Source of the DNA: Prorocentrum cordatum
Taxonomy: Eukaryota > Sar > Dinophyceae > Prorocentrales > Prorocentraceae
NCBI GenBank assembly: GCA_963575745.1
Contig: CAUYUJ010003650.1
Location: 1 to 64,000 of the forward strand
Reading direction: 5' to 3'
DNA length: 64,000 bases
Within the stretch, counting starts at the first letter, position 1. Each line of letters begins with the position of its first letter. Shown here piece by piece: positions 8,793-49,607 of this stretch. The position numbers and the translations under genes are program-made. Below the pieces are notes generated by a model. It was not told the origin of the DNA, searched no databases, and saw nothing but the letters and a program-made list of their open reading frames with translations.

Positions 8793-9442
8793 CAGGAGCA
8801 CGGCAGACCACGGAGCACGGCAGACCCCACACGAGCACGGCAGACCAAAGAGACGACACAAGGAGCACAGCAGATCCCGCAGGAGCAGGGCAGACACCAC
8901 ACGGGCACGGCAGATCCCAAATGAGCACGGCAGACACAGAAGCACTGCAGACCACACCAGAGCACCGCAGACCTCACAGGAGCACGGCAGACCCCACAGG
9001 AGCACGGCAGACCCCACAGGAGCACGGCAAACCACAAAGGAGCACGGCAGACCACAGAAGCACGGCACACCACACAGGAGCACGGCAGACCACACAGGAG
9101 CACGGCAATCCCCACAGGAGCACGGCAGACCGCGCGCAGGTACAACATAACGCGCCTTTTGTTGTACCCCGAACGCCGCTGGCGTTTCCCCCACAGGAGC
9201 ACGGCAGACCCCACAAGCTCGCGGGAAACCCCAAATGAGCACGGCAGACCACAGGAGCACGGCAGACCACACAGGAGCACGGCAGACGCCACAGGAGCAC
9301 GGCAGACCGCGCAGGAGCACGGCAGACCACACATGAGCACGGCAGACCCCACAGGAGCACGGCAGACCCCATAGGAGCACGGCAGACCATAGAAGAGCAC
9401 GGCAGACCAACAGGAGCACGGCAGACCACACAACAGCACGGG
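8793..9442 (+). repeat. 20-bp tandem array upstream of LINE A
   Basis: 20-bp units in + orientation, broken by a double-hairpin module at 9139-9190. The last unit, CACACAACAGCACGG (9427-9441), carries the unusual AACAG variant and is repeated exactly after the 3' end of LINE A, so it is the upstream copy of its target-site duplication. Confidence 0.95.
9139..9190. repeat. Double-hairpin module, copy 1
   Basis: GGTACAACA pairs with TGTTGTACC around an A/T-to-GC loop, followed at once by AACGCC-GCT-GGCGTT. It is embedded in 20-bp units. Other copies lie at 16433-16483, 47033-47083 and 57440-57490. Confidence 0.85.
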
Positions 9443-9464
9443 TCCGTAGCCATTTTGGCTCAAG
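9443..9464 (+). other. Dinoflagellate spliced-leader sequence, copy 1
   Basis: All 22 nt match the dinoflagellate SL consensus (core CCGTAGCCATTTTGGCTC, ending CAAG). No GT splice donor follows, as it would in an SL RNA gene. Instead the element's leader follows directly, so this is a copied, already trans-spliced mRNA end. An ATG in strong context (GCCATGG) begins 3 nt later, at 9468. Confidence 0.95.
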
Positions 9465-9619
9465 GCCATGGCGCACCCGACGACCGCGAGTCCGTCGGGC
9501 GTTCTGGAGCGCGAGGGGCGCTTCGCCAAGAGCCAGAAGCTTCGCCAATTTTGTTTCTCCACGTTCCTGCAGGGCCGTGGGTCTCGGCCGAGCATCAGTC
9601 AGTCCCACGGTGTGCCGCC

Positions 9620-10918
9620 ATGTCGGAGGTTGCCTCGGGGCTGGCCAAGCGGGCGTACTGGCTGTGTGTTAAGCGTGGCTGCAACGCTTGGAACTGGTGC
9701 GACAAGCGTTGGACGTGCAAAGTTTGTGGCACCAGTGCGCCCCCTTGGACGAAGGATTACCGTACTGACAAGGGCCCCCCGAGAGTGGACGCTGACGGGT
9801 TCGTACAGCAGCCCAGAGGGAGGGCTGAACAGCGGGCTGCGAGGCGCTCAGCTTCCCAGCGGGCCCTCTCTGGGAGCACCGCGCCCAGCAGCACCCCCAA
9901 CAGCAGGGCGCGGCGTGGGCGACCTTGGGGGGAGGCCAAGGCCCAGTTCGAGGAGCTGCAGGCGCAGCTCGTGGCGGCCAGGGAGCGCGTCGGCAAGCTC
10001 CAGGGGGCCCTGGCGCTCGGGCTCTCGGCTGACTTCCAGCGTGAGGCCGAGAGCGCCCTCCAGCTGGGCAAGGACCAGGTCGCAGCCCTGGAGCTGGCCG
10101 TCCAGGACGCCCAGCGGACGGTGCGCCCACCTCACTCGGTGCTCCACATCGAGGCCAACGCCATTAAGAAGGTCGAGCGCCAGCTGGCTGCGGCGCGCAC
10201 CAAGAAGGAGAAGCTCCAGATGCAGGCGTCCGAGCTGCGCGAACTCATCGCGGAGAAGCAGGAGCAGCTCTCGGCAGCCGAGCTGGGAGTGGATGAGGTC
10301 GCGGGGCAGATTGCCGAGCTGGAGGATACCCGAGCCAAGGTCACGCAGCAGGCGATCCAGCGGGCCAACGTGGCCGTCGGAGGTGTTCCGAGCCCGCTTG
10401 GGGACGCAGTCCAAGGGCTGCTCACTCAGGTCGGCGCCCTGTCGGATCTCCTCAAGCAGCACGGGTCGGAGCTGCCCCCGAGGTTTTCCGAGATCGTCGG
10501 GATTCTCAACACGCAGAAGGAGGCGGTCGCCGAAGTGCTCAGGCCCCGCAGCAGCTCGGCCACGACGCGTTGGGGGGACAGCGTCGGGGACGATGGCCTC
10601 GCGACCGATGATGACGACATGCCGCTTGACATCGTGGCCTCTGGGGGGCCTACGGCCGCCCCGCCCTCTGCAGCCCCGCAGGCAGGGCCCACCGCGGCTG
10701 GGCCGCCAGGCCCGCGGGCCAAGTCAGTGGACGGGCCCTACGGCCCTGCTGCGGCCCGCGGCCAGCACGGGGCGACCCTGGGCACGTGGCCTCAGGTGGA
10801 GCCGGGCCTCGCCAAGGCCCTCGCCGAGCAAGGGGCGGCCCTCGCGGATAGCGACCCCCTGGTGGCTGCGGGTGCTGTTGCTGCTCCTGCTGCTGGATAC
10901 GGGCCGCGCCGTGGGTGA
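9620..10918 (+). CDS. LINE A ORF1: Cys-rich, coiled-coil RNA-binding-type protein
   Basis: 432 residues. The N terminus holds five cysteines (C16, C21, C27, C33, C36) with Trp residues between them, suggesting a zinc-binding finger. Ser/Arg-rich sequence follows to about residue 110. A long helical, charged region with heptad-like Leu spacing (about 110-250) predicts a coiled coil, and the C-terminal third is Pro/Ala/Gly-rich. Finger plus coiled coil fits a LINE ORF1 chaperone that coats element RNA; that role is inferred from position and layout. The ATG at 9620 is in GCCGCCATG context and is shared by copies B and C. Protein conservation among the copies is clearly higher in this frame than in the +1 frame, which is also open. 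ORF1 appears intact although ORF2 of this copy is not. Confidence 0.85.
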   Translation: MSEVASGLAKRAYWLCVKRGCNAWNWCDKRWTCKVCGTSAPPWTKDYRTDKGPPRVDADGFVQQPRGRAEQRAARRSASQRALSGSTAPSSTPNSRARRGRPWGEAKAQFEELQAQLVAARERVGKLQGALALGLSADFQREAESALQLGKDQVAALELAVQDAQRTVRPPHSVLHIEANAIKKVERQLAAARTKKEKLQMQASELRELIAEKQEQLSAAELGVDEVAGQIAELEDTRAKVTQQAIQRANVAVGGVPSPLGDAVQGLLTQVGALSDLLKQHGSELPPRFSEIVGILNTQKEAVAEVLRPRSSSATTRWGDSVGDDGLATDDDDMPLDIVASGGPTAAPPSAAPQAGPTAAGPPGPRAKSVDGPYGPAAARGQHGATLGTWPQVEPGLAKALAEQGAALADSDPLVAAGAVAAPAAGYGPRRG

Positions 10919-11312
10919 TGCGAGAGCGTTGGAGTGGGCAGCTTCCACCGCCGACATCGACGTCTGGGGCAGCGGTGCGCCCTTCTTTCAGGACGTGCGA
11001 GGGCCCAGCTGCTGGGACAGGTGGAGGAGGTGCTGTGGTGGCTGCTGGCGCACCCGCGGCCATCACAAGCGGCGGGCGGCGCCGTGCACCCCTGCCCGAG
11101 GTAGCCAACTGGCGCGGTCGGGAACACCGAGGTGGCCCCCCGACGGCCAGCCAGGGGCCGTGAGCGGTGGGATTCAGCCCCACGACGTCGCAGCTCTCGG
11201 CCCCGTTGGTGATGGGCAGGGACGCCCCCCGCTGGCAACCGGAGGGGTCGAGGGATGGCCTCCTCCTCTGCGGTGGCCACCTCCCGCGCAGGCCAGCGGC
11301 CCGCCCTCGCCG

Positions 11313-13560
11313 ATGAGGAGCGCTGGAGCGTGGGGCCAGGTTCCCCCTCCAGTCCTAGTGGGGGCGGAGGGTCCCGCGACCAGGGGCTCGGCGTCCTCTG
11401 TGTCGTGCGCTGGGCAGCGTGCAGTCCGCGTGGCAGCCGTCATGGGCAAGGCGCCGATGGTGGACAGGGGGGGAGGCCAGCAGCTACGAGCTGGCCTTGT
11501 CCTCCTCGGCTGCAATGGCAACACTTGGAGCAGGAGCATCGAGGTCATAGAGGCCTTCTCCAAGACGTGCTACTACTGGCTCGACGTGGTGGCGCGGCAG
11601 GAGACGAGGCTATCGCATGTGCGCCTGCCCAGTGCAGCGGCTCAGGCCCGCGGCCTGGGCTACGTGGCAGTCCTCCCCGAGGCAGCGCTGTCGGTCAACC
11701 AGGGGCCCCAGGCGACCTCAGGCGGGGCGGCGGTCCTTGTGCGAGACGGCGTGCAGGCCGCCGAGTCAGAGTTCTCGCTGCCCTCCGCCTTGCGGCACCG
11801 CATTCGCTGTGTGGAGGTAGCCTCAGCCTCGGGCCCGCAGTCCCTGGCGGTCTCTGAGTATGTCCAGCACCCTGCGGGCCCGCGAGTCTCCGACCTGGTC
11901 CTGTTTTCGGCCTTCTCGGAGGTGACGGGCCTCTCTGCCGACATCCTGCGGGTCCTCCAAGCCGTCTTCAACGTGGAGCCTGAGCCCCTCGTGGAGTTGG
12001 GGTGGCAGTGGCGGTGCGGGGACACTTCCTGGAGCCCTCGGAGGCGACGTGCTATGCCGAGGGCGGCGACCTCCTCTCCGATTGGTTCGAGGCTTCATCG
12101 GCGTTGGCAGCCAGCGCGGCCTCCTGCGCCACCGCGCGCGAGGGCTTCGGTGCGCACCCTCATCGCCCCGTCCTGCTTCGCCTCCAGGATGTCTGCTCGC
12201 TTCCTGGGCCCGCGTGTGGAGGAGATCCTCATCGGCTGTGCGTCTACGGTCAGCTGTCTCACGTTGGGCAAGAGGCACGCAACGGCAGCCAGCAGGCCCA
12301 ATGCCCCTCTCTGGGAGGGGATCTACGCCTCGCTGGACGTGGACACGCTCAAGGCGACCACGGCTGCAGCTCACTGTACCGCCTGTGGCGTGCTGGACAG
12401 CAAGGTCACGGAGGCCCACCTCAGCGGCAACGGCCTTGCCGACAGCTGGGCCAAGGCAGGTGCGGAGCGGCACCGAGCCAGTGCGGTGGCCAGGCGCGGG
12501 CTCTTCGGCACGATGGAAGTGGTGATTGAGCTTTCTGGCGGGGAGGCGCAAGTCTCCCTCATCTGGCAGTGGATTGCCTTCGACAGGTGCGGAGTCGGCG
12601 CGGCCAAGCTGGAGCTGATGGCGGGCACCCACGGCGGGGCTTATGCGAGGCCTGGCGGGAGCAGAGGTGCGGCGCCCAAGCTCAAGGAGCTATGGCCTGG
12701 CGCTGCGGCGGCTCGGCCCGAGCCAGCGCAGCCGAGGCGCAGCATCGCGCCCAGGCTTGAGCGGCAGCTCGCTGTATGGGCGCGCTTCTGGACCCAGACC
12801 CCCGAGGTTGGCGAAACGATGGAAGGCTACAGCGAGTGGATGGACCACTGCGTCGGCTACGTCACGCAGATCCTGTCCCAGCCGCGCTTCGCCTCCAGGC
12901 TGCGGGCGCGTGGGAGGACGGCCGAGGAGTTAGCCGAGGAGATCTGCGAGCGGGCCTGGGGGACTGGCATGCCTGCGAGGAGGGCCTACTACAGGTGGCG
13001 CTACACGCTGACGCGGTCGCAGATGATCGTGTCGGACTGCATACGGCGCTACGAATACGTCTGCCTGCGGACGTGGATGGCCGAGCTGCAGCGGGAAGGG
13101 CAGCCCCCGCCCATTGGCCCGCTCAGAGCGCCCATCGGCCCATTGCCGTGGAATGCGGGACGCAGGAGGCGACGAAGAAGTGGTTGATGTCGGCCTCCCC
13201 TGGCACGCCCCACTGCGGCAGCAAGGGGGTCGGCTCGGCTGCACCCTGCCTTCGCAAGGAGGAAGTGGTGCCGTTGGCGCGGGTGCGCTTCCTTCAGTGG
13301 CTGGGGGCCCGCCCCGTGCACGCCCCTTGCGGCAGGCCGCTGGCGACGGCAGTGGGCCCCCCAGCGGCGCGGCGGCGGCTGCAGAGGCGGCGGCGGAGCC
13401 GCTGGCGCCTGGCCCCGCGGGGGCCACGGGTGAGGACTAGCTTGCGCCTACGGCCTTGGGAGGCGAGCCTCCATGAGCGGTCAGCCGCGGCTGAGTCGGC
13501 ACGCGTGGGCAGGCGCAAGAGGCGCCGCCGCGCCGACGGTGACGGTGGGGTGCGATGCAG
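11313..13560 (+). pseudogene. LINE A ORF2 remnant: damaged APE endonuclease joined to RNase H
   Basis: The endonuclease part (about 11490-12180) keeps GCNGNTWSRSIEV and QETRL. However, QADFN of the other copies is QAVFN here, so a catalytic Asp is lost, and ALQETR is ARQETR. An indel near 12001 shifts frame until the deletion junction near 12190, where sequence jumps to SARFLGPRVEEILIGC of RNase H. The reverse transcriptase is absent. Later, GNGLADSWAKAGAE of RNase H is recognisable. An insert of about 0.4 kb (12720-13160) reads WMDHCVGYVTQILSQPRF and has no counterpart in B, C or D; it ends at a stop (13185-13187). The original C terminus continues out of frame to about 13560. The start is tentative: ATG 11313 (MRSAGA) is the first in-frame Met after ORF1 and is shared with copy C. 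Confidence 0.85.
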
Positions 13561-13862
13561 CATCTTCCTCCCTTCTGTTGTGTCCGCCCCCCGTCATCCT
13601 TTTCCTTTCTGTGCGTGAGGCAGCTCTTCTGGCCTTGTCGCACTCGCAGCGTTGGGGGCATGTTGGGCGTGCGTACGCGCCGCTGCCTCTGCTGCCTTCT
13701 TGATTTCTCTGAAATCTTGCGCTTCGCGCGTCTGGCGCTCCGCGCCTCCCTCCCTGCGGAGGCCCCTCTCGGGCCCCCAGGGCTGGCCCTTGAGGCCCTG
13801 GGGCCACTGCGCTCCGTGGGCCTCGGGCTTCTTTTAGCCTTCATAGGCCCCGCACGACACGA
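13561..13862 (+). other. LINE A 3' tail
   Basis: Untranslated tail shared with copies B, C and D: TTGATTTCTTTGAAATC-type opening, GCGCTTCGCGC words, GGCCCTTGAGGCCCTGGGGC, then GCCTCGGGCTTCTTTTAGCC. It ends GCACGACACGA, the same subtype as element E2 (B, C and D end GCAGCTCACAGCT). There is no poly(A). A conserved 3' tail is what a LINE reverse transcriptase would recognise; that role is inferred. Confidence 0.75.
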
Positions 13863-14178
13863 CACACAACAGCACGGCAGGCCACACAGGAGCATGGCAG
13901 ACCACACAGGAGCACGGCAGACTACAAAGGAGCACGGCAGACCACACAAGAGCACGGCAGACCCCACAAGAGCACGGCAGACCCCACAGGAGCACGGCAG
14001 ACCCCACAGGAGCACGGCAGAGCAGACCCTAAAGGAGCACGGCAGACCACACAGGAGCAAGGCAAACCACAGGAGCACGGCAGACCACACAGGAGCACGG
14101 CAGACCCCACAGTAGCAAGGCAGACCCCAAAGGAGCACGGCAGACCACCGGAGCACGGCAGACCACACAGGAGTACGG
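13863..14178 (+). repeat. 20-bp tandem array between LINE A and E1
   Basis: The array starts with the downstream TSD of LINE A (CACACAACAGCACGG, 13863-13877) and ends with the upstream TSD of E1 (CACACAGGAGTACGG, 14164-14178). Units keep + orientation. Confidence 0.95.
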
Positions 14179-14200
14179 TCCGTAGCCATTTTGGCTCAAG
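14179..14200 (+). other. Dinoflagellate spliced-leader sequence, copy 2
   Basis: All 22 nt match the SL consensus, directly abutting the TSD that ends GAGTACGG. The leader CCAGGTCGGGCGCGCGCG follows, without a splice donor at the SL boundary. Confidence 0.95.
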
Positions 14201-14236
14201 CCAGGTCGGGCGCGCGCGCGCGCGGGCTCGAGTTCG

Positions 14237-15775
14237 ATGGCGACGGGGAGACGGCCAGATGTTCGGCTGTCTGGAGGGCAACGGCGGGCGCCGCGCGAGC
14301 GCCGCCAGGCTCAGCGTTGGGCCGCCCTCTCACGTGAGAGATTGGCGCAGAGGCAGGCAGCGCAGCTCCTGGAGCTGCAGGGCCTGGCCGAGGCGCCTCC
14401 GAGCATCCTGCGCCGCCTGGCCCTCGTTGCGCCCGTGCTTATCGCGCAGGAGAAGGGCGAGCAGCTACAGGAGGGCAGGATACTAGAGCGGAGCGTCGGC
14501 TGCCACGCGCAGGACCTCCCGCGGCCTGGAGCTCCGCGGCGCGCCTGGCGGATCGCCCAGCGCGGCCCGCGGCTCCCGCGCCCGCGGTCGCTCCTGTCTG
14601 GGTCGAGGGATTTCCCGACTGGCTCGGCGGTCTCGCACGTCGCTGACGTCGAGGCCGCCCTTCTGGCGGATTCCGCTGCCCGCGCCGCCGTGCGCGCGGA
14701 GAGCGAGGGCCACGTGGAGCCTAGCGAGTACGTGGACACGCTGCGGCGCGATGCCGACCTCTTCTGGCCGCTTCGGCCCCCGGGACGCTGGGACGACGGC
14801 GGAGTGGTGATGAGCGGCACCGAGGAGGTCGGCACGGGACGCACGCCGCTGAGGTCGTCTGCTGAGCCTTTCCTGCTGTCGGGCAGCGTCAGCCAGCGAC
14901 GGAGCGACGAAGGCGTTTTGTGCTCTTGTGGAGCAGTTCTGTACTCTTCCTGCCGTGCCGCCGCTGGTATTGTGGGTATTGTGCAGGCGGATGATGTGAG
15001 CCCTGGAGGTACTGCAGGCCGTGCGCCGCTGCCTCCCGCTACTGCTGCTGACGGAGGTGCCACTGCTGATGTGCCAGGCGCGTCTTGCGACGGCTCCGAC
15101 GTCGACGACGTTACCCTGGACGGTGAGGCCGACGCGGACACCTCGTGCTCGGTCGGCGAGCCGCCAGGTGCCGACCATGCCGGTACTGCTGCAGCAGCCG
15201 CCGCGTACCTCGCCGCCTTCCCGCAGGCCCTCTTCAGCGGGGGCGGTGGCGGCTGGGGCCGCTGCGAGGTCGGGGCAGGGGACTGGTGGCGTGCGAGGGC
15301 CGTCGTTGCCCGCGTTTGGCTCACCACAGGTGCTGCGACGGTGCAGGAGAGCGGTGCTGCTGGATCTGCCGCTCCGCCGCCGCCGCTGCCTGACGATCTC
15401 TTGCGGGCCGAGTGCCAGATGTCGGGGCGTGCCGCAGGCGCTGTGGCGCCGCCGCTGCTGCGGAGGGTCCGCTTCGCAGATGCCCCGTGCGTGCTCGATA
15501 TTGGCTGTTGCTCGGGCATGCGTGGTATCCTTCGGCGGGGGAGCGTGCCAGGGTTTCTGGATCCCGCTTGGACGCGCCAAGCCAAAGCTGTTGACCTGAT
15601 GCACATGATCGAAGGCGACTCCTTTGGCCTCACGGTTCCTCCCATGCGGAGGCCGCACCAACTTCGTGCGCGATTCGCGGATGAGTCCCGTCTGGTTGAC
15701 GCCCTTCCGCCAGGGATGTCCGTTGAGCGTGCCAGAGAGATCGATCGTCTTATCTCATTGTGCGGAGGGCAGTAA
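14237..15775 (+). CDS. E1 cargo protein, function unknown
   Basis: 512 residues from the first ATG after the SL (leader of 36 nt) to TAA. I do not recognise the family. The N-terminal ~60 residues are Arg/Gln-rich and helical (RRQAQRWAALSRERLAQRQA). Residues ~60-120 are Leu/Arg-rich, and the middle (about 250-350) is acidic and Ala/Gly/Asp-rich low complexity. The last 110 residues look most structured: LRRVRFADAPCVLDIGCC contains RVRF, which fits the RVxF docking motif of protein phosphatase 1 partners, and a second LRARFADES follows. The RVxF reading is a guess from four residues. The reading frame is intact over 1.5 kb inside a retrocopy, suggesting it is recent or selected. It could be a captured host gene or a non-autonomous element's own protein. 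Confidence 0.6.
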   Translation: MATGRRPDVRLSGGQRRAPRERRQAQRWAALSRERLAQRQAAQLLELQGLAEAPPSILRRLALVAPVLIAQEKGEQLQEGRILERSVGCHAQDLPRPGAPRRAWRIAQRGPRLPRPRSLLSGSRDFPTGSAVSHVADVEAALLADSAARAAVRAESEGHVEPSEYVDTLRRDADLFWPLRPPGRWDDGGVVMSGTEEVGTGRTPLRSSAEPFLLSGSVSQRRSDEGVLCSCGAVLYSSCRAAAGIVGIVQADDVSPGGTAGRAPLPPATAADGGATADVPGASCDGSDVDDVTLDGEADADTSCSVGEPPGADHAGTAAAAAAYLAAFPQALFSGGGGGWGRCEVGAGDWWRARAVVARVWLTTGAATVQESGAAGSAAPPPPLPDDLLRAECQMSGRAAGAVAPPLLRRVRFADAPCVLDIGCCSGMRGILRRGSVPGFLDPAWTRQAKAVDLMHMIEGDSFGLTVPPMRRPHQLRARFADESRLVDALPPGMSVERAREIDRLISLCGGQ

Positions 15776-16207
15776 GCTGTTGTCTCTGAAGCTGCGAGGT
15801 CTGTGAGTGAGTCCTTCCTCCTCTCCTCTGCTTGGCTTCCTCTCTCCCGCTTGCATTCGCATTTTTGTATGTGCACGTGGGCATCGTGTGGCACTTGTTG
15901 ATCTTTGAAGTCCTTTTTCTTCAGCGTGATCTTCGGTGCAGCTTCGCTGCTTCTGCATGCCTCTCGGCACCGCCCGCCCTCGTGGCCCTGGGGCCTAGGC
16001 GCCCCCGTTGGCCCTGGCGGCCTGCCCTCGGGGGGGCCCGTAGCGGCCCCTCGTGAGGGTGTGCTGGAGGTTCGCCCGAAGCGGCCCCTCGGGGAGGGCG
16101 GCCCGAAGCGGCCCCCTCCTGCTGGCCCTGGAGGCTCCCGAGAGCCTCGGGCTTGGTCCTCAGTGGACCTCTCCTTTTTTCCAGCCTTTAGAGGCCCACC
16201 ACACACA
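15776..16207 (+). other. E1 3' tail
   Basis: Contains GCATTCGCATTTTTGTATGTG and GCAGCTTCGCTGCTTCTG, both matched in the E2 tail (from about 26833). A GC-rich GGCCC-repeat stretch follows, then the LINE-like terminus before the TSD at 16208. Confidence 0.75.
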
Positions 16208-17006
16208 CACACAGGAGTACGGCAGACCCCACGTGAGCACGGCAAATCCCAAATGAGCACGGCAGACCACAAGAGCACGGCAGACCACACAGGAGCACGG
16301 CAGACTCCACAGGAGCACGGCAGACCACAAAGGAGCACGGCAGACCACACAGGAGCCCGGCAGACGCCACAGGAGCACGGCAGACGCCACAGGAGCACGG
16401 CGGAACCCACAGGAGCACGGCAGACCGCGCGCGGGTACAACATAAACGCGCCTTTTTGTTGTACCCCGAACGCCGCTGGCGTTTCCCCAACAGGAGCACG
16501 GCAGATCTCACAGGCGCGCGGCAGACCCCAAATGAGCACGGCCGACCACAGGTGCACGGCAGACCCCAAATGAGTACGGCAGACCCCAAAAGAGCACCGT
16601 AGACGCCTCAGGAGCACGGCTGACCACACAGGAGCACGGCAGACCACACAGGAGCGCGGCAAACCACAAAGGAGCAAGGCAGACACCAAATGAGCACGGC
16701 AGTCCACACGTTCGCACGGCAGACCGCACAGGAGCACGGCAGACCCCACATGAGCACGGCAGACCAAGAAGGAGCACGGCAGACCACACAGGAGCACGGC
16801 AGACCACACAGGAGCACGGCAGACCACACAGGACACGGCAGACCCCACGGGAGCACGGCAGACCACACAGGAGCACGGCAAACCACACAAGAGCACGGCA
16901 GACCATACAGGAGCACGCCAGACCACACAGGAGCACGGCAGACCACACGTTCGCACGGCAAACTCCACAGGAGCACGGCAGACCCCAAAGGAGCACGGCA
17001 GTGGTA
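16208..17006 (+). repeat. 20-bp tandem array after E1
   Basis: The array opens with the downstream TSD of E1 (16208-16222). The stretch 16208-16610 is matched almost base for base by 46808-47210 and by 57215-57625. The stretch from about 16610 onward is matched by 48345 onward. Distinctive units with CACGTTCGCACGGC occur near 16705 and 16945. Confidence 0.95.
16433..16483. repeat. Double-hairpin module, copy 2
   Basis: GGGTACAACA (16433-16442) pairs perfectly with TGTTGTACCC (16457-16466). AACGCC (16469-16474) pairs with GGCGTT (16478-16483) across GCT. The two stems are only 2 nt apart. Confidence 0.9.
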
Positions 17007-17370: not shown

Positions 17371-17371
17371 G

Positions 17372-17410: not shown

Positions 17411-17776
17411 GGCCATTTCGCTCGAGACATCCTCAAAAAATCGAGGTGTGGTCTGCCGTGCTCCTGTGTGGTCTGCCTTGCTCCTGTGGTCTGCCGTGCT
17501 CCTCAGAGGAGCACGGCAGACCGCGCGTAGGAACCGAGAGGAGCACGGCAGACCAAGACGAGGAGCACGGCAGACCAGGCACCAAGAGCGCCCTCAAGAC
17601 GACGGAAAGGATGACCAAGACGAGGAGCACGGCAGACCAAGACGAGGAGCACGGCAGACTATTCCCTAAGAGTGCCCTCAAGACGGCCGAACAACGGCAG
17701 ACCCCATAGGAGCACGGCAGACCACAGAAGAGCACGGCAGACCAACAGGAGCACGGCAGACCACACAAGAGCACGG
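17411..17776. repeat. 20-bp array with orientation switches, upstream of LINE B
   Basis: A half unit of the ~75-bp satellite (17412-17447) is followed by reverse-oriented 20-bp units to about 17504. A second perfect hairpin (GGTCTGCCGTGCTCCTC, one A, then its complement) follows, then forward units with inserts such as CACCAAGAGCGCCCTCAAGA. The array ends at CACACAAGAGCACGGC (17762-17777), the upstream TSD of LINE B. Confidence 0.93.
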
Positions 17777-17798
17777 CCCGTAGCCATTTTGGCTCAAG
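17777..17798 (+). other. Dinoflagellate spliced-leader sequence, copy 3
   Basis: 21 of 22 SL positions match. Position 1 (A, G or U in the consensus) is C here and may belong to the target unit (GAGCACGGC). ATG 17802 in GCCATGG follows 3 nt after the SL, as in copy A. Confidence 0.93.
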
Positions 17799-19252: not shown

Positions 19253-22200
19253 CGCAGGAGGGCTGGTGTGGCAAGCCTCCACAGCTCGGGGGCCCAGCAG
19301 CTGGGACAGGTGGAGGCGACGCTGCGACGGCCGCTGGCGCGTCAGAGCCCCTCGCAGGCGGCGGGCGGCGCCCAAGGCCCTGGCCCGAAGTAGCCAGCTG
19401 GCGCGGTCGGGAACACCGTGGTGGCCCCCCGACGGCCAGTCAGGGGCCGAGAGCGGTGGGATTCAGCCCCACGACGTCGCAGCTCTCGGCCCCGTTGGTG
19501 AAGGGCAAGCGCACCCCCCGCTCGCTACCGGAGGGGCGGAGGGACGGCCCCCCCCCCCAGCGTTGGCCACCTCCCGTGCAGGCGTGCAGCCCGCCGACGC
19601 CGTCAAGGAGCGCTGGAGCGCGGGGCCAGGTCCCCCCTCCAGTCCTGGTGGGGGCGGAGGGCCCCGCGACCTGGGGCTCGGCGGGTTTGGAGCCTCGCGT
19701 TGAGGAGCATGCGGCTCGCGAGGCCGCCGTCATCGGCAAGGCGCCGCCTGGTGACAGGGCAGGAGGCCAGCAGCTCCGATCTGGCCTCGTCTTGCTCGGC
19801 TGCAATGGCAATACTTGGAGCAGGAGCATTGAGGTCATCGAGGCCTTCTTCAAGGCGCACGACTACTGGCCCGACGTCGTGGCGCTGCAGGAGACGAGGC
19901 TCCCGCATGAGCGCCTGCCCAGTGCGGCGGCTCAGGCTCGGGGCCTAGGGTACGTGGCCTTCCTCCATGCGGCAGTGTTGACGGAGAAGCAGGGGCCCCT
20001 GGCGACCTCAGGCGGCGTGGCGGTCCTAGTGCGGGACGGCTTGCAGGCCGACGAGTCTGCAGCCCCGCTGCCCTCGGCTCTGCGGCACCGCCTCATCGGA
20101 GTGGAGATTGCCGCAGCTTCGGGCCTTCGGCTTCTGGTGCTTGCTGGTTATTTTCAGCACTCTCTGGGCCCCCGTGGCATCAACCTCGACTTGTTTTCGG
20201 CCATCTCGGAGGTGACGGGCTTCGATGCAGACATCCCGTGGGTCCTCCAAGCGGACTTCAACATGGAGCCCGAGCCCCTGGAGGAGTTGGGCTGGCCCGC
20301 GGCAGTGCGGGGGCACGTCCTGGGGCCCACGGAGGCGACGTGCCATGCCGAGGGCTGTGACCACCTCTACGACTGGTTCGTGGCGTCTGCGGCGTTGGCT
20401 GCATGCACGGCCTCCTGTGCCACCACGCTCGAGGGCTTTGGTCTGCACCCTCATCGCCCTGTCCTACTTCGCCTTCAAGATGTGCGGGCTGATGCGTTGG
20501 TCGAGGTTCCGTCCAGGCCCGCCCGCTTCCCCGAGGTAGCCCCTGAGCTCCTTCGGGCACACGAGGACGCGGAGATTGTGCGTTACTCGTTTAGCAAGAA
20601 GGGGCAGGTCACGTCCAGGGAGGTCTCGTGGTCCTGGGACGTGGGCTCTGCCCCGACCAGCCTCTCCGTCGCCTTCGGAGAGTGGGCGGCTGCTGCAGAG
20701 GGCACCCTGGTCGGCATCCACGGCATCGGCCAAGCTGACCTGGCCCGTCATCTCGGCAGAGGAGAGGGGCCGAGGCTGACCCTCAAGCCGCTCAGCGCCC
20801 TCGTCAGGCGGGAAGCCAGGTTCAGGTTCAGCCTCCTCACGCACCGCCTAAGGAGTTGCCTCGACGTGGCCCTCCAGCGGCTGCGCGCGGAGAGCTCGGG
20901 CCGATGGCACCCTCGGCATGCCGACTGGTACGAGCACCAGGCCGAGCTCAGGGCGCAGCTCTTGCTGGAGGCGGTGCAGGAGGCGGACGACTCGGTCGGT
21001 CAGGGTCTTCCTGGTGCTGCGCCTGAGCGGTTGAGCGACCTGGTGTACCAAGCGGGCGTCCGCGGCAGTCCTGAGGCAGTGCGGGACCTCCAAGGGCTGC
21101 TCTATGCTTCGCAGCGCCGCGATGCGGCTCAGAGTGCCCAGGCCTGGCGCAGCTGGGCCCAGACAGCGGTCGAGAAGGGCGGCCGCCTGGCCCACCGCTT
21201 CTCGAAGGCGACGCCCCCGCCGACGGTCAGGGATGCCGACTCGGGCAGGAGGCTGGTGGGTATGGCAGCGATTGGCGAACTCACGAGGGTCTGGCAGAAG
21301 CTATGGCTCCAGGACGGGTTTGCCTCGGGCGCAGGGGCCAGCAGCTGGGATGTGGGCGAGTGGCAGTTGCCCCCCATCTCGCTGGAGCAGCTCCAGGCAG
21401 CCTGCAAGCGCTACAGCCCCTCGGTGGGCCTCGGGTGCGACTCCCTGCACCCTCGGCAGATCCTCCTTCTGCCAGTGGCGCTGCAGCTGCGCATCCTGGA
21501 CATCCTGGCGGCCTACGACGAGGCCCCTGCGTCGATCCACGGGCAGGTCTCCCTGATGGTGTTCATTCCGAAGGCGGACGGTGGGGTAAGGCCCATAGCG
21601 CTGCTGCCGTTGGTCCTGCGGCTCTGGTCGCGCCTCCGCCAACCGTGCTGTGCGCGCTGGGAGGCGGACCACAACTTCCCCTTCTTCTGGGGACGTGATG
21701 GGCGGGACTGTGAGAGGGCTGGTTGGCTGCACAACTGTTTCGCGGGGTTCGCGAAGTCGAACCTGCAGTTCGAGGCCGCGAGCCTCTTCCTGGACATCAG
21801 CAAGTTCTACGAGCACGTGCGGCACGACGTTCTCTGGGCGAATGCGGTACGTTTCGGGTTCAACCTCAGGTTGCTGCGCGGCCTCCTCACGTCCTACCAG
21901 GCCCCTAGGATGATCCTCGCGGCGGGCATGGCCTCCCCCGCCTTCGGTACTACAGGAACGGTGCTGGCTGGGTGTGCGTGTGCGACAGCAGTTGCGAAGC
22001 TCCCAGTCCTGGGAGCCCTCCTGGCAGCGGGGGCTACCAGCCCGTTGGTCACGCCGAGGAATGTTGTCGACGATATTTCTCTCCAGGCGGTCGGCACGGC
22101 TCGGCTCGTGAAGCTGCAGATGGTGGCCGCCAGTCGGGAAGTGGTCCGACAGCTGCGCGAGCAGCACCTCCCACTCAACGAGAGTAAGTCGGTCTTCTTG

Positions 22201-24648
22201 GCCTCGTCGCCGCAGCTCGCCAAGGAGCTCTCCGAGGCTTGGGCGGAGCATGGCTTTACCTTCAAGAGGGGACTTCAGGCGAGGAACCTCGGCACCGACG
22301 CCAACATCACTCGTCGTGGAGTTCATGAAGGAGCTGTGCGTGCGGTCAGCGGCCTTCGCCGAGGACGCAGGCTAGGGGTGCTTCGCTCAGCTGGCGCGGT
22401 CACCGAGATGGTTCATCGTGCTGGGCCCACCGCGGCGATGCTGTGGGGGCGCACTGTGACTGGCGTACCTGATAGGGAGCTGCATTCGTGGCGCCTGGCG
22501 GCGATACGCTCAGCTGGGAAGTTCCCTAAGGGCGCCTCGCTCGGGCTGAGGCTCAGAGTGGTGGAGGTCATGAGGTCCACCGATCTCGACCCGAGCCCAG
22601 CGCTGCTTCGCGCCGCGGTGCAGATGGCGGCCAGTCTCCTCCAGTCGGGGGAGGTCCCGCTGCGCATGTTCGAGTCGGCCGTGCAGGAGGCAGTGCAGAG
22701 GCATGCGGGGGCAGCAGCCCCTTGGGTGCACTGCCGCACGCCGGTGGAGGCCCTGGCCCTCTCGCTCGCCAGGGTTGGATGGAGGCTTGTTCACGGGGCC
22801 CGCCTCGCAACCGACGACGGCCATCTCCTGGACCTGCGAATGTTGGGGCCGCGTGAGCTGGGCCTGCTGGCTGCTGCAGGGGCACGGCGCGCGTCGGACA
22901 AGTCGGAGCTGGCCCGCCTCGGCCACGGGGCGCTCCCCCAGTCGCCCCTGTTCTGGGAGGCCTTCGCGGAGGTCCTCGGGCCTGGCAGCAAGCTCAGCCA
23001 CAGGGAGAAGGCGGCGGTGGTGAGCTTCCTTTCCAACGCCCACTGGCCCCAGACCCGTCTGCACTCGGCGGGAGAGAGGGAGCACGCTCGCTGCTGTGCC
23101 TGTCAGGCCCCCCGCGGCAGCCTCTGGCACAGGCTGTTCGAGTGTCCTGTCCTTGCGGGGGCCAGGCGTGACTCTACCTCTGACCGCCTTCGGCGCTGTG
23201 CGCATCGTGCGCGCGGCCGTGGCGAGGAGGCGGGCGAATGTTTCGCGCGCTGCTGGCTCCCTCAGCCACCGAGGGCCGCCACGAGGACAGACGCCATGTC
23301 AGTCATGTGGTGCAATCGCCCCGCTGACGGTCTTCTCGGGGGGCGGCTCTATCTGGATGGGTCGGCGCTCGACCCTGAGCACGAGAGCCTGCGGCGTGCG
23401 GGATGGAGCATCGTGCAGTGCGACTCCGACGGCAACTTGGAGTGCGCGGTGTACGGCAGCGTGCGCCAGGACCTCTGCCCGTTCCAGACGGCGAAGGACG
23501 GCGAGGATTTCGCGGTCTGGATGCTGTCTCGCTTCCTGGGCCCGAGCGTTGACGAGATCCTCATCGACTGCGCGTCCACGGTCAGCTGCCTCACGTTGGG
23601 TAAGAAGTACGCGACGGCAACCAATAAGCCCAACGCCCACCTCTGGGAGGGGATCTACTCGTCGCTAGACGTGGACACGCTCAAGGTGACCAAGGTCGCA
23701 GCCCACTGCACCGCCAGAGACGTGATGGATGGCAAGATCACGGAGGCGGACCTCCGTGGCAACGGACATGCAGACCGCTGGGCCAAGGCGGGGGCGGAGC
23801 TCCACCGTACCAGCCCAGCTGCCAGGCGCGAGTTCTTTGGCACGATGGAGGTGGTGAGGGAGCTCTCGTGCTGGGTGGCGCAAGCCTCCCTCATCTGGCA
23901 GGGGATCGAGGTCAAGGACTGCGAGGGCCTCCCCGAGGGCAGCGAGCGGGCGGCCGTTTCCTTCGCAGTGCCAGTGGTGGAGCCCGCCAGCAGCCGCCCT
24001 CCCGACCCGTGTTCGAGCGACGGGTGGGCATCGGCGGCGAGCGCTGGTGGCGTCTCCCTCGGGGCGACGGCCTTCGTCGTCGTCGGCCACGTCCTGGCCT
24101 ACGCCAAGTGCGGGGAGGGAGCCGCCGAGCAGGAGCTGATGGCGTGCACCCACTGCGGGGCGTACGCGCGGCTGGGCGGGCGATCAGGTGCGGCGCCCAA
24201 GCTCAAGGAGCAGTGCCCTGGGTCGGCTGGGCTTCCCAAGGGCAGGAGAGACCAGAAGGCGCGCTGGTTGCAGGGGCGGCACCCTGCTGGCACGCCCCAC
24301 AGCGGCAGCAAGAGGGTCGGAGCGTCCGTGCCCAGCTTGCGCAAGGAGGACGTTGTGCCGATGGCCGCCAGGGTGCGCTTCCTGGAGTGGCTGGGTGTCC
24401 GCCCCGATGATGCACCTGGCGGCGAGGCCGCCGACGCCGGCCGAGGGCCCCCCAGCGGCGCGGCGGCAGCAGGTGAGGCGGAGGCTGAGCCCCTGGCGCC
24501 TGACTCCTCGGGGACCTCTAGGGAGGCTTGGCTGAGCGCCTACGGGCTCGACGAAGCGAGCCTCCTTGAGTGGTCAGCCGCAGCAGAGACGGCGCGCGAA
24601 GACAGGCGCAAGAGACGCCGTCGCGCTGAAGGTGACGAAGGGGAGTGA
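19120..24648 (+). CDS. LINE B ORF2: APE endonuclease, reverse transcriptase, RNase H polyprotein
   Basis: An open frame of 1842 codons that overlaps the end of ORF1. APE-type endonuclease lies at about 19785-20490 (GCNGNTW; ALQETRLPHE at 19881; QADFNMEPE near 20250; HRPVLLRL near 20453). Reverse transcriptase lies at about 21300-22300 (VFIPKADGGVRPIALLP; motif A FLDISKFYEH at 21787; motif C VVDD at 22063-22074). A CCHC knuckle (CCACQAPRGSLWHRLFECP) starts near 23090. RNase H (about 23337-23810) has YLDGSALD, ILIDCASTVSC and GNGHADRWAKAGAE. A basic tail, REDRRKRRRRAEGDEGE, ends the protein. The listed start is a GTG and probably not real: no in-frame ATG precedes the endonuclease, whereas copies A and C offer MRSAGA (11313, 51337). 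The C11 run at 19548-19558 is 1 nt out of step with A; one C less would join ORF2 to the frame used in A and C. All catalytic motifs look intact. Confidence 0.92.
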   Translation: MAPGGALPRQGPRRAGGGLLGRRPLGGCGCCRGSCCRVRAAPWVTQEGWCGKPPQLGGPAAGTGGGDAATAAGASEPLAGGGRRPRPWPEVASWRGREHRGGPPTASQGPRAVGFSPTTSQLSAPLVKGKRTPRSLPEGRRDGPPPQRWPPPVQACSPPTPSRSAGARGQVPPPVLVGAEGPATWGSAGLEPRVEEHAAREAAVIGKAPPGDRAGGQQLRSGLVLLGCNGNTWSRSIEVIEAFFKAHDYWPDVVALQETRLPHERLPSAAAQARGLGYVAFLHAAVLTEKQGPLATSGGVAVLVRDGLQADESAAPLPSALRHRLIGVEIAAASGLRLLVLAGYFQHSLGPRGINLDLFSAISEVTGFDADIPWVLQADFNMEPEPLEELGWPAAVRGHVLGPTEATCHAEGCDHLYDWFVASAALAACTASCATTLEGFGLHPHRPVLLRLQDVRADALVEVPSRPARFPEVAPELLRAHEDAEIVRYSFSKKGQVTSREVSWSWDVGSAPTSLSVAFGEWAAAAEGTLVGIHGIGQADLARHLGRGEGPRLTLKPLSALVRREARFRFSLLTHRLRSCLDVALQRLRAESSGRWHPRHADWYEHQAELRAQLLLEAVQEADDSVGQGLPGAAPERLSDLVYQAGVRGSPEAVRDLQGLLYASQRRDAAQSAQAWRSWAQTAVEKGGRLAHRFSKATPPPTVRDADSGRRLVGMAAIGELTRVWQKLWLQDGFASGAGASSWDVGEWQLPPISLEQLQAACKRYSPSVGLGCDSLHPRQILLLPVALQLRILDILAAYDEAPASIHGQVSLMVFIPKADGGVRPIALLPLVLRLWSRLRQPCCARWEADHNFPFFWGRDGRDCERAGWLHNCFAGFAKSNLQFEAASLFLDISKFYEHVRHDVLWANAVRFGFNLRLLRGLLTSYQAPRMILAAGMASPAFGTTGTVLAGCACATAVAKLPVLGALLAAGATSPLVTPRNVVDDISLQAVGTARLVKLQMVAASREVVRQLREQHLPLNESKSVFLASSPQLAKELSEAWAEHGFTFKRGLQARNLGTDANITRRGVHEGAVRAVSGLRRGRRLGVLRSAGAVTEMVHRAGPTAAMLWGRTVTGVPDRELHSWRLAAIRSAGKFPKGASLGLRLRVVEVMRSTDLDPSPALLRAAVQMAASLLQSGEVPLRMFESAVQEAVQRHAGAAAPWVHCRTPVEALALSLARVGWRLVHGARLATDDGHLLDLRMLGPRELGLLAAAGARRASDKSELARLGHGALPQSPLFWEAFAEVLGPGSKLSHREKAAVVSFLSNAHWPQTRLHSAGEREHARCCACQAPRGSLWHRLFECPVLAGARRDSTSDRLRRCAHRARGRGEEAGECFARCWLPQPPRAATRTDAMSVMWCNRPADGLLGGRLYLDGSALDPEHESLRRAGWSIVQCDSDGNLECAVYGSVRQDLCPFQTAKDGEDFAVWMLSRFLGPSVDEILIDCASTVSCLTLGKKYATATNKPNAHLWEGIYSSLDVDTLKVTKVAAHCTARDVMDGKITEADLRGNGHADRWAKAGAELHRTSPAARREFFGTMEVVRELSCWVAQASLIWQGIEVKDCEGLPEGSERAAVSFAVPVVEPASSRPPDPCSSDGWASAASAGGVSLGATAFVVVGHVLAYAKCGEGAAEQELMACTHCGAYARLGGRSGAAPKLKEQCPGSAGLPKGRRDQKARWLQGRHPAGTPHSGSKRVGASVPSLRKEDVVPMAARVRFLEWLGVRPDDAPGGEAADAGRGPPSGAAAAGEAEAEPLAPDSSGTSREAWLSAYGLDEASLLEWSAAAETAREDRRKRRRRAEGDEGE

Positions 24649-24951
24649 TGCAGCATCACTTTCCTCTTTCTGTTGTATTCGCCCCTCGTCACCTCTTTTG
24701 GCGTGCGCGGGTGGCAGCGTCTTCTGCCCCGCATTGTTGATGCAGCGTGGAGGCTGTCAGGCGGATGTGCGCCTCCGCCCCGCTGCTTTCTGATTTCTTT
24801 GAAATCGTGCGCTTCGCGCTTTTGGCGCTTCGCGCCCTTCCCCTGGCGGCTCCCTTGGGGCCCCTAGGGTTGGCCCTTGAGGCCCTGGGGCCAACGGGCT
24901 CTGTGGGCCTCGGGCTTCTTTTAGCCTTCACTGGCCCCGCAGCTCACAGCT
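24649..24951 (+). other. LINE B 3' tail
   Basis: Untranslated tail from GCAGCATCACTTTCC to GCAGCTCACAGCT, almost identical to the tail of copy D. It shares GATTTCTTTGAAATC, GCGCTTCGCGC and GCCTCGGGCTTCTTTTAGCC with A and C. Confidence 0.85.
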
Positions 24952-25170
24952 CACACAAGAGCACGGCAGGCCACACAGGAGCACGGCAGACCACACAGGA
25001 GCACGGCAGACCACAAAGGAGCACGGCAGACCACACAAGAGCACGGCAGACCCCACAAGAGCACGGCAGACCCCACAGGAGCACGGCAGACCCCACAGGA
25101 CCACGGCAGAGCAGACCCAAAAGGAGCACGGCAGACCACACAGGAGCAAGGCAAACCACAGGAGCACGGC
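24952..25170 (+). repeat. 20-bp tandem array between LINE B and E2
   Basis: Opens with the downstream TSD of B (24952-24967) and closes with CACAGGAGCACGGC (25157-25170), which recurs after E2. Unit order resembles 13863-14100, 46505-46720 and 56914-57120. Confidence 0.95.
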
Positions 25171-25192
25171 TCCGTAGCCATTTTGGCTCTAG
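25171..25192 (+). other. Dinoflagellate spliced-leader sequence, copy 4
   Basis: 21 of 22 nt match the SL (CTCTAG instead of CTCAAG at the end). It directly abuts the array unit ending GAGCACGGC. Confidence 0.93.
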
Positions 25193-25231
25193 CCTGCTCG
25201 GGCGCGCGCGCGCAGCGTGTGCTTGGGAGCG

Positions 25232-26764
25232 ATGGCGACGGGAGGGGACCCTCCGCGGTTCCCCCGCTCGCGCGGCGAGCGCAGCGAGGCTGCGCGGCGT
25301 GCCCGTGCCGCGGCCGATGCGGCCGTGCGGCACGCCCGTGCGCGCGCCGGCGAGCTGGAGAAGGAGGTCGCGCGCCTCAGGGAGGTCATCGCGGGCCTCA
25401 CGGGTGGCGTGCCTGCTGCCGAGCCTGGCTCGTGGCAGGACAGGGAGGCTGCCGCTCGGCCCGCCCTGATCCTGGCCTCTGGCGGCCGGCCCGTGCCAGG
25501 GGCCGTGAGATTCCGCCGGAACACGGCCTTGCACGCGGCTCGTGCGCCTGCAGCGGGGTTTGCGGCGGCACCGCGGGCTGGCTTGGCCTGGGCGGCGGCG
25601 GGTCCGCGCCTTGGAGGCGTGCTCGGCCGGGGGGCGGCGGCCGCCGTCGTGTGCGAGGTCGAGATCTGCGAGTGCGAGGTGCCCGCGCGGCCCTCCCCTC
25701 CGGCCCCGCCGCGACGTGAGCTGCCAGAGGCGGCCGACGCGAGGCGCACGCCGCTTAGCTCCGCGCTCTCGGAGCAGCTCGGCTTGCTGCAGGGCGACCT
25801 GGCGAAGCTGTCCGAGCGGAAGGGCGCGCTCGAGGAGGGCGCTGAGCTCACGGTCGAGCTGGAAGCGCTCCCGCAGCGGCTGTGCGCGCTGGAGGACACC
25901 GCCGAGCCCAAGGCCGAACTGGAGGCGCTCTCGGAGCAGCTTGGCTCGCTGGCGGGCGACGCGGCGACGGGGTCCGAGCGGCAGGGCGCGTTCGAGGAGT
26001 GCGCGGAGCCTAGGGGCGAGATGCAGGAGCTCTCGCAGCGGCGTTGCGCGCTGGGGGATTCTACCGAGGCCGAGGCCGAGATGAAGGCGCTTTCGGAGCA
26101 GCTTGTCTCGCCGAAGGGAGACGTGGCGGCGTTGTCCGAGCGGCAGGGCGCGCTCGCGGAGGGCGCCGAGCCCACGGTCGAGCTGGAGGCGCCCTCGGGG
26201 CGGCTGGGCGCGCTGGAGGAGGGCGCCGAGCCCACGGTCGAGCTGCAGGACGACCTGGCGGCGCTGTCCGTTCGGCAGGGCGCGCTCGAGGAGGGCGCCG
26301 AGGCCAGGGGCGAGCTGGAAGTGCTCTCGCAGCGGCCGTGCGCGCAGGAGGCGACCTCCGAGCAGCTGGTCTTGCAGAAGGGCGACCTGGCGGCGCGGTC
26401 CGAGCGGCTGGGCGCGCTGGAGGAGGGCACCGAGCCCAAGGGCGAGCGGGAGGTGCTCTCGAAGCCGATGAACGCGCGGGAGGCTCGGGGCGAGCAGAAG
26501 GAGGCGCAGAAGGCCTCCCGCCTAGCGTTCAGCGAGAGCTTGTTTTACTTCCTGGACGATTTCTCGGTGGCGGCGGTGCTGTGCGTGGCCATTGGGCCCA
26601 AGACGGGAGTTGAGGCACTCCTGAGCTCGGCCGAGGCCCGCTTTCTCGGCGTCAGCCCCAGCACTGCAGGCTGGCCAGTTGCCGAGGAGCGTGAGCGTAT
26701 CCTCGAAGGCCGCCTGCAGGTCGTCCAGATGCCGAGGGGCGTAAGGGGCCCCCTCGATGATTGA
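25232..26764 (+). CDS. E2 cargo protein: acidic heptad-repeat coiled-coil protein, function unknown
   Basis: 510 residues from ATG 25232, the first ATG after the SL. It begins MATG like the E1 protein; an upstream in-frame GTG at 25217 is less likely. An Arg/Ala-rich helix (about 15-60) and an Ala/Pro/Gly-rich linker (about 75-170) precede the main region. Residues ~180-420 consist of about eight or nine diverged ~28-31-residue repeats of the form LSERQGALEEGAEPTVELEA, rich in Leu, Glu and Ala with heptad spacing, so a long parallel coiled coil is likely. The C terminus (SLFYFLDDFSVAAVLCVAIG) is hydrophobic and may form a small globular or membrane-associated cap. I do not recognise the family. 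The repeats have no counterpart in E1 although the two elements share their ends. Confidence 0.62.
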   Translation: MATGGDPPRFPRSRGERSEAARRARAAADAAVRHARARAGELEKEVARLREVIAGLTGGVPAAEPGSWQDREAAARPALILASGGRPVPGAVRFRRNTALHAARAPAAGFAAAPRAGLAWAAAGPRLGGVLGRGAAAAVVCEVEICECEVPARPSPPAPPRRELPEAADARRTPLSSALSEQLGLLQGDLAKLSERKGALEEGAELTVELEALPQRLCALEDTAEPKAELEALSEQLGSLAGDAATGSERQGAFEECAEPRGEMQELSQRRCALGDSTEAEAEMKALSEQLVSPKGDVAALSERQGALAEGAEPTVELEAPSGRLGALEEGAEPTVELQDDLAALSVRQGALEEGAEARGELEVLSQRPCAQEATSEQLVLQKGDLAARSERLGALEEGTEPKGEREVLSKPMNAREARGEQKEAQKASRLAFSESLFYFLDDFSVAAVLCVAIGPKTGVEALLSSAEARFLGVSPSTAGWPVAEERERILEGRLQVVQMPRGVRGPLDD

Positions 26765-27088
26765 GGCAAGCAGTTGCTTTCCGTTTCTGCTGCTTGCCTT
26801 GCGTGCGGACGCTAATTCCGTTTGCTCCGTGCATTCGCATTTCTTGTATTTGAATGTGTACGTGAGCTCTTCTGTGCAGCTTCGCTGCTTCTGATGCCTC
26901 TCGGCACTGCCCGCCCTCGTGGCCCTGGGGCCTAGGCGCCCCCGTTGGCCCTGGCGGGCGTCTGGCGCTCCGCGCCCCCCTGCGGAGGCCCCTTTCGGGC
27001 CCCCAGGGCTGGCCCTTGAGGCCCTGGGGCCAATGGGCTCCGTGGGCCTCGGGCTTCTTTTAGCCTTCATAGGCCCCGCACGACGCGA
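26765..27088 (+). other. E2 3' tail (E1-type then LINE A-type)
   Basis: E1-like sequence to about 26955 switches to the LINE A tail inside GGCCCTGGCGG|GCGTCTGGCGC. This is a visible chimaeric junction. Confidence 0.8.
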
Positions 27089-27291
27089 CACAGGAGCACG
27101 GCAGACCACAGGAGCACGGCAGACCAGGCACCAAGAGCGCCCTCAAGACGACGGAAAGGATGACCAAGACGAGGAGCACGGCAGACCAAGACGAGGAGCA
27201 CGGCAGACTATGCCCTAAGAGTGCCCTCAAGACGGCCGAACAACGGCAGACCCCATAGGATCACGGCAGACCACAGAAGAGCACGGCAGAC
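27089..27291 (+). repeat. 20-bp array with CACCAAGAGCGCC inserts
   Basis: Forward units with the same inserts (CACCAAGAGCGCCCTCAAGA, GAAAGGATGACCAAGACG) as the arrays upstream of LINE B and LINE C. It breaks off at GGCAGACC, where copy D begins inside ORF2. Confidence 0.93.
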
Positions 27292-27293
27292 CG

Positions 27294-49558: not shown

Positions 49559-49607
49559 TCCGTGTGTATCGGCCGAGCAGCTGTCAGTCTTCCCTCGGTG
49601 AGCCGCC

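Follow-up and report, generated by a model that had tools for sequence, protein, structure and literature searches.

R1, TRAS and SART are site-specific long interspersed nuclear elements (LINEs) with an endonuclease of the apurinic/apyrimidinic (APE) type, whose targets are 28S genes or telomeric repeats, and SLACS, CZAR and NeSL are LINEs that target the spliced-leader gene. Here we describe elements found in a stretch of 64,000 nucleotides from the dinoflagellate Prorocentrum cordatum (contig CAUYUJ010003650.1, positions 1 to 64,000; this whole stretch is referred to as the window), which begin with the spliced leader and lie at one position of a 20-bp satellite. The LINE family among them resembles R1, TRAS and SART in its APE-type endonuclease and in a fixed cut within a tandem array; however, those elements lack a leader, whereas the present family is leader-headed and has a satellite as its target. 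With SLACS, CZAR and NeSL it shares the adjacency of LINE and spliced leader, but there the leader gene is the target, whereas the inserts described here carry the leader as their own 5' end, and satellite without any leader makes up the empty target sites of the window.

LINEs specific for microsatellites and other repeats have been described, for example Togen in (TG)n and YURE in a U2-derived satellite, and NeSL is named as a leader-gene LINE in the same text (PMC4640811). Togen and YURE likewise occupy repeated DNA at a position that is fixed or preferred; their group, however, carries a restriction-like endonuclease, as opposed to the APE type, the 20-bp satellite and the spliced-leader head of the present family (PMC4640811). 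In the leader-tagged retrogenes of dinoflagellates, the leader is also located at the 5' end of the insert (PMC6050394; PMC12014239), and some of them contain a relic leader after position 7 (PMC12014239). The present insert differs from these in that it encodes a reverse transcriptase (RT) and an endonuclease, has an exact target, and carries a single leader without a relic. According to a review, the type of element that mediates retroposition in dinoflagellates is unknown, and elements with long terminal repeats (LTRs) are thought likelier (PMC6050394). Among the matches listed for dinoflagellate leaders, LINEs and retroposition, for target-specific LINEs, for trans-spliced LINEs and for the P. 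cordatum genome, no title or abstract opening mentioned leader-headed LINEs or the present satellite as a target.

Insertion site within the window

The satellite has the 20-bp unit CACACAGGAGCACGGCAGAC. The leader CCGTAGCCATTTTGGCTCAAG occurs on the forward strand at 9444, 14180 and 17778 as an exact match and at 25172 with one mismatch, at the heads of the elements A, E1, B and E2, respectively, and no match was obtained in 100 shuffles of the window. Before all four leaders the upstream satellite unit breaks off at phase 15 or 16, whereas no such break was seen at the 11 satellite ends found elsewhere in the window (these were placed by eye and are partly paralogous), and in the 3' flanks of the leader-headed elements the satellite resumes at phase 1. 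The 3' flank of E2 begins at 27089 as CACAGGAG, a unit that is two bases short. The target duplications are 14-16 bp long, and that of A, CACACAACAGCACGG, occurs on the forward strand of the window at 9427 and 13863 only, which are its two target copies.

A preliminary description of this DNA had placed the leader start of A, E1, B and E2 exactly at a broken array unit, and the leader positions and unit phases bear this out; the duplications it had given for these four elements were confirmed in sequence, and the empty array has a single copy of each of its three targets. A fifth duplication, at element C, does not mark an independent site, because C, which lacks the 5' part, matches B at 98.6% identity along 4.3 kb and is no independent event. 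The elements had further been described as lacking poly(A), which applies in the window, where the tails finish in short repeats such as (CACGA)n; elsewhere, one sister LINE ends in GATAAAAAAA. Finally, all four leader-headed elements had been regarded as LINEs, which is correct for A and B but not for E1 and E2, in which no RT is detectable.

Empty sites and the higher-order repeat

A higher-order repeat, composed of two arrays separated by a non-satellite spacer, is present in several copies in the window. The unoccupied paralogous array at 46434-47030 runs uninterrupted through the three target units and contains every target once, as opposed to twice in the filled array copies. In addition, sites 2 and 3 are empty in the flank of D, a fifth LINE, and site 2 is empty in the flank of A (Table 1). 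Since the empty sites have a single target copy, the duplications must be genuine and cannot be put down to the periodicity of the array, and a deletion of 4-5 bp instead of a duplication is likewise ruled out.

Site 1 is occupied by A, B, C and D, site 2 by E2 and site 3 by E1, i.e., the four LINEs share one unit of near-identical copies of the higher-order repeat. In aligned pieces, the elements are 87-89% (B/D), 79-85% (A/B) and 80-88% (A/D) identical. The flanks agree with the empty copy in 301/301 positions downstream and 87/87 upstream for D, 218/220 and 87/87 for B, and 297/301 and 84/87 for A, and the spacers differ at 2/446 (empty/D), 7/445 (B/D) and 5/445 (B/empty) positions. The simplest reading of these values is that A, B and D would be separate insertions into one unit of young repeat copies, while wholesale conversion is possible instead.

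The entire locus of the window is found once more on contig C15471 (284,862 bases), with corresponding tail spacing and leaders; the 3' flank of A is identical there, and a haplotype and a duplication are both possible. A GC-rich tandem repeat of 197-200 bp is located at 47237-48153 beside the empty array and at 57649-58237 beside the 3' flank of D.

Junctions in the genome

In the host assembly (P. cordatum, 4.13 Gb), the LINE tail (26 nt, at most one mismatch) was found in 73 + 61 copies, with none for the reversed control. From these, 60 3' flanks were drawn without regard to target or leader, comprising all exact tails listed that lie neither in the window nor on C15471 (39), one of four exact tails from C15471 and the first 20 tails with one mismatch outside the window; one flank reading N and one second copy of A on C15471 were dropped, which left 58. 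An anchored phase finder placed 45 of the 58 at phase 1 and five at phase 3. For the phase-3 tails (L130, L159, L163 and L170 with CACAGGAG, and L141), our reading is that the cut is unchanged and that the unit lacks two bases, as it does at site 2. The anchored version replaced a free-start phase finder, which had assigned 5/60 flanks to phase 1 because it overran into the tail, whose repeats resemble the satellite. Around the first unit, 34 distinct 38-mers were obtained, three of them without a recognised core. The two largest groups belong to site 1 (10 copies of one tail type and 7 of the second), and at site 3 each tail type has three copies. Two tail types per unit suggest at least two insertions each in the units of site 1 and site 3.

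For the 5' side, 40 segments of 671 bp were taken at full-length distance upstream of tails, and the leader was not used for placing them. A LINE 5' end with the leader was present in 12 of them, twice with one mismatch (L174, L176, L183, L186, L188, L192, L193, L194, L205, L206, L209, L212), so that the leader comes first in 12 of the 13 LINE 5' ends found in this way, the exception being L203. L180 is clipped by the edge of its segment and has the sequence of a sister subfamily, and the 26 remaining segments, three of which are partly N, contain no LINE 5' end at full-length distance. Satellite at phase 15 adjoins 10 of the 12 leader-bearing ends, and in nine of these ten the exact 15-mer of the 5' flank recurs at the start of the copy's own 3' flank, the pair of L188 differing in one base. 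The other duplications, CAGCATGCCAGACC in L205 and 13/14 bases in L192, lie in degenerate or other repeats. The nine exact 15-mers include variant duplications that match outside the window, CACACCAGAGCACGG for L186/L117 and CACACAGGAGTACGG for L176/L121. The proposal of a fixed position had been made to depend on junctions that are neither spread over all phases nor mostly outside the unit, and on matching variant duplications in a wider sample; it survives on both counts.

Leaders directly after GAGCACGG, with 0-3 bases between, number 59 + 54 = 113, including B and E2 of the window plus their second copies, compared with 9 + 12 = 21 after ACAGGAGC, near which a sister subfamily (L012, L028) cuts, and 3 + 2 = 5 after ACGGCAGA; the reversed controls gave 0. 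Independent insertions thus occur at the same position, as in site-specific LINEs, judging by the tail phases and these leader counts. As in leader-tagged retrogenes, the insert begins with the leader, both at 12 of the 13 genome 5' ends and in A, B, E1 and E2, and no stacked relic leader was found in A, B or the 12 genome copies, each of which has a single leader. At 100 listed places, the bases between GAGCACGG and CCGTAG are T in 46, GT in 29 and other in 25 cases; since the next base of the unit is C, the extra G does not stem from the consensus target.

Coding capacity and possible partner elements

The long frame of B, the most complete copy, contains an APE-type endonuclease (PF03372, E 9.6e-6 in B, where it is above the cut-off, and 6.7e-8 in D) together with an RT, and among 14 relatives the APE domain is matched in 10 and the RT in five. 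An RNase H, which we presume at 23347-23790 in ORF2, was assigned by motif only and has no Pfam match. Both the combination of APE-like endonuclease and RT in one frame and the target-site duplication without LTR are as in APE-type non-LTR retrotransposons. The matches in the PDB were a group II intron RT for the RT part (E 0.0042) and an R2 protein for the profile (E 0.075); an assignment to a clade from these matches was rejected, as they are too weak. P. cordatum proteins account for 27 of the 29 homologues, the annotated proteins nearest to B (P0007, 95%) and D (P0003 and P0011, 93-94%) being distinct, with 86-87% identity for B/P0003 and D/P0007. A search of viral contigs with two DNA patterns and one protein scan gave no match. 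The Rfam scan of 9300-27200 yielded only microRNA families far below the gathering scores, in an inverted-repeat spacer, which were taken as chance matches. An alignment of 14 copies of the LINE clan, partly picked by the first conserved box CCCGACGACCGCGAGTC, shows that CCCGACGACCGCGAGTC...GAGCGCGAGGG (e.g., 9471-9530) is conserved in the 5' untranslated region (UTR), while the remaining UTR diverges.

Table 1. Elements, reading frames, target copies and empty sites in the window.
Feature	Position	Strand	Sequence or remark
5' target copy of A	9427..9441	+	CACACAACAGCACGG
LINE A	9443..13862	+	leader 9443-9464, extra G before it at 9442; internal deletion of ~3 kb including the RT
3' target copy of A	13863..13877	+	CACACAACAGCACGG
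5' target copy of E1	14164..14178	+	CACACAGGAGTACGG
E1	14179..16207	+	leader 14179-14200; 512-aa frame 14237-15775; CA-rich 3' end, own tail
3' target copy of E1	16208..16222	+	
5' target copy of B	17762..17777	+	CACACAAGAGCACGGC
LINE B	17778..24951	+	most complete copy; leader 17778-17798, tail 24908-24926
B, open reading frame 1 (ORF1)	17954-19252	+	432 aa
B, ORF2	19120-24648	+	1842 aa, overlapping ORF1
B, ORF2, APE	~19801-20460	+	
B, ORF2, RT	~21559-22203	+	
3' target copy of B	24952..24967	+	
5' target copy of E2	25157..25170	+	CACAGGAGCACGGC
E2	25171..27088	+	leader 25171-25192 (one mismatch); 515-aa frame 25217-26764; LINE tail 27047-27065
3' target copy of E2	27089..27102	+	
LINE C	27293..31585	+	duplicate of B, 5' part missing
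3' target copy of C	31586-31600	+	CACACAAGATCACGG, one change
Empty site 1	46507..46522	+	CACACAAGAGCACGGC; second empty site 1 at 31765-31780
Empty site 2 (E2 target)	46712..46725	+	CACAGGAGCACGGC; also empty at 14068 and 57119
Empty site 3 (E1 target)	46808..46822	+	CACACAGGAGTACGG; also empty at 57215
LINE D	49559..56913	+	fifth LINE; site 1; leader reduced to TCCGT

The common tail starts at 13821, 24908, 27047, 31542 and 56870, corresponding to A, B, E2, C and D, and is absent from E1, whose tail differs. The frames of E1 and E2 contain no Pfam domain, and no RT was detected in them. E2 shares both the tail and the cut with the LINEs, E1 the cut but not the tail. The last 138 nt of E2 are 93% like those of A, and E1 and E2 have in common a 5'-terminal stretch of 71 nt and another of 98 nt close to the 3' end. 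All 11 homologues of E1 are P. cordatum proteins, one of them identical and located on the locus repeat of C15471. E2 is 76% identical over 190 aa to P0024, whose gene model also holds LINE-like segments, and E-type proteins from other loci have short common stretches only. The database name of the E1 homologue P0030, 'Snurportin-1', is unsupported by the present analysis.

Other repeats and sister LINEs

Leader copies with at most one mismatch number 11,042 + 10,963 in the assembly. The 60 bp just upstream are periodic at 47 of the first 70 listed leaders, compared with 1/30 controls 700 bp downstream, and the 24 nt beside the leader match a named repeat motif in 61 of 90 cases, compared with 24/1069 random stretches taken from 30 of the leader loci. 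The motifs beside these 90 leaders are (TCC)n in 37, (GGA)n in 15, the satellite in three, (CAGACA)n in two, TCA, CACATA, TA and CA in one each, and 'other' in 29 cases, several of which are, by eye, imperfect repeat versions. Ten further sites, judged by eye only, bring the total to 100. Among these, six copies of the LINE clan were recognised by eye (leader + GCHATG + CCCGACGAC), which lie in (TA)n (L011), the satellite (L028), (CAGACA)n (L036), (CA)n (L095) and a recurring AATGCCMTYRCCG context (L056 and L109), and none of the six in (TCC)n/(GGA)n. The satellite as a fixed target, as proposed in the preliminary description, holds for the present LINE family but not for its sister families, which occupy other repeats. 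At L074, an RT-less leader-headed element and a LINE with near-equal tails are found in one (CAGACA)n, L108/L109 have a similar neighbourhood, and the insert at L076, unrecognised as a LINE, has a perfect duplication of 17 bp.

(TCC)n/(GGA)n adjoin 52/90 leader-headed inserts of many kinds (L001-L070, L080-L099). Several of these inserts begin alike, e.g., with ATG...GGATACCGCTAG, which suggests further retro-families.

Proposed mechanism and alternative explanations

The copies have position, duplication and orientation in common, and the leaders are intact. From these sequences we conclude with good confidence that P. cordatum probably harbours an APE-type non-LTR retrotransposon family specific for one position of the 20-bp satellite. 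The fixed phase is most likely due to the presence of one AGAC|CACACA site per unit. The element RNA would be trans-spliced and begin with the capped 22-nt leader; the leader at the head of the inserts points to this mRNA as the template. Nicking of the bottom strand takes place between AGAC and CACACA, presumably by the APE endonuclease. At its 3' end, the RNA may form a stem-loop, beyond which lie short CAC-rich repeats; this end would pair with the nicked strand and prime the synthesis at the target, and copying would proceed through to the first base of the leader, as seen in the intact leaders; the extra G at 29/100 junctions would fit copying of the cap. The top strand would then be cut 15-16 bp downstream after GAGCACGG(C), resulting in the duplication that the empty sites reveal. 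E1 and E2 have the same cut and were probably moved in trans by the LINE.

Several observations weigh against a family of this kind with a strictly fixed site. On the 3' side, 8/58 tails were scored neither at phase 1 nor at phase 3: L165 is at phase 14, L120, L132, L139, L140 and L161 are below the threshold, and L153 and L157 are unparsed, although the flanks of L120, L139, L140 and L161 also open with CACA by eye; the repeats around L132/L192 and L153/L205 are degenerate or of another kind. There are also fewer than 58 independent events, because many tails lie in duplicated flanks. On the 5' side, the 21 leaders after ACAGGAGC imply that the cut is not perfectly fixed, and the phase counts cover GAGCACGG, ACAGGAGC and ACGGCAGA, with CAGACCAC and CCACACAG outside them. 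D has lost its leader, and in L203 (contig C6901) degenerate satellite is joined directly to the first base after the leader. With regard to the protein and the RNA, the RT match of B (PF00078, E 4.5e-5) is under the Pfam cut-off, and the LINE tail is able to fold, though its advantage over shuffled sequences is weak (z -1.7 to -2.3).

It is very unlikely that there is no target specificity and that duplication and gene conversion of the higher-order repeat merely amplified a small number of satellite insertions that arose by chance. In favour of this, B and C represent one duplication, A, B, C and D lie in one unit, many tails have common flanks (10 + 7 at site 1), and C15471 repeats the spacing of the window tails; however, the 34 distinct 38-mers, the two tail types at both site 1 and site 3, and the presence of empty copies argue against it, as do elements that differ by 11-21% where their flanks differ by 0-5%. 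That leader-headed cDNA of any kind lands at tandem repeats, through fragile or open DNA or break repair and without a family-specific endonuclease site, is improbable as well. The periodic DNA upstream of leaders (47/70 as opposed to 1/30) and the named motifs beside them (61/90 as opposed to 24/1069) would agree with it, but not the constant phase and the 14-16 bp duplications of the satellite LINE family, nor the six clan copies, which by eye lie in CA-/TA-rich repeats or the AATGCC context and in no case in (TCC)n/(GGA)n, which hold 52/90 leader sites.

A further explanation concerns the template step only and is compatible with the target claim: the leader may be inherited as element DNA, e.g., as a promoter, instead of being renewed by trans-splicing in each cycle. 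The leader has been suggested to act as a promoter (PMC6050394), and none of the LINE copies seen here has a stacked relic leader, compared with about 10/100 other leader sites by eye. In the young family, divergence is equally low in the leader and in the UTR (5/315 and 20/1410 sites), which does not discriminate a renewed from an inherited leader. By contrast, the leader differs at 13/1911 pairwise sites among 14 clan copies, as opposed to 2640/8268 for columns 21-120, although the older copies in this comparison were selected by their leader, and L203 begins exactly at the boundary of leader and UTR. We regard an inherited leader as rather unlikely.

Going beyond the specific family, it is tentatively conceivable that an APE LINE clan and its RT-less coding partners use capped trans-spliced mRNA as the template and have radiated by switching between repeat targets, i.e., the 20-bp satellite, (CA)n, (CAGACA)n, (TA)n and the AATGCC type, and that a related machinery would insert host mRNAs into (TCC)n/(GGA)n. 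This wider scenario is weakened because E1 does not have the common tail.

Neighbouring Helitron-like gene

A Helitron-like gene is located at 35211-40418 (Helitron_like_N, E 2.5e-18; PIF1, E 5.8e-17), and beyond it the 20-bp satellite forms an array of 1.4 kb at 40987-42351. The frame downstream to ~44600 appears by eye to be the remaining helicase and an OTU-like protease, without a Pfam match, and the array may therefore lie in an intron of the Helitron-like gene or split it.

Implications for dinoflagellate retroposition

With a leader-headed LINE that has an exact target, duplications and empty sites, the question of the mediator becomes directly testable, namely by nicking of the satellite by the endonuclease, nick-primed reverse transcription, and copying of leader RNA up to the cap. 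The family offers a LINE that often inserts full-length at a short satellite and thus a testable route for dinoflagellate RNA back into genes. If the radiating clan should prove true, it would be the engine of leader-tagged retroposition in dinoflagellates, in which every insert lying in a transcribed array would obtain a complete 5' end through trans-splicing.

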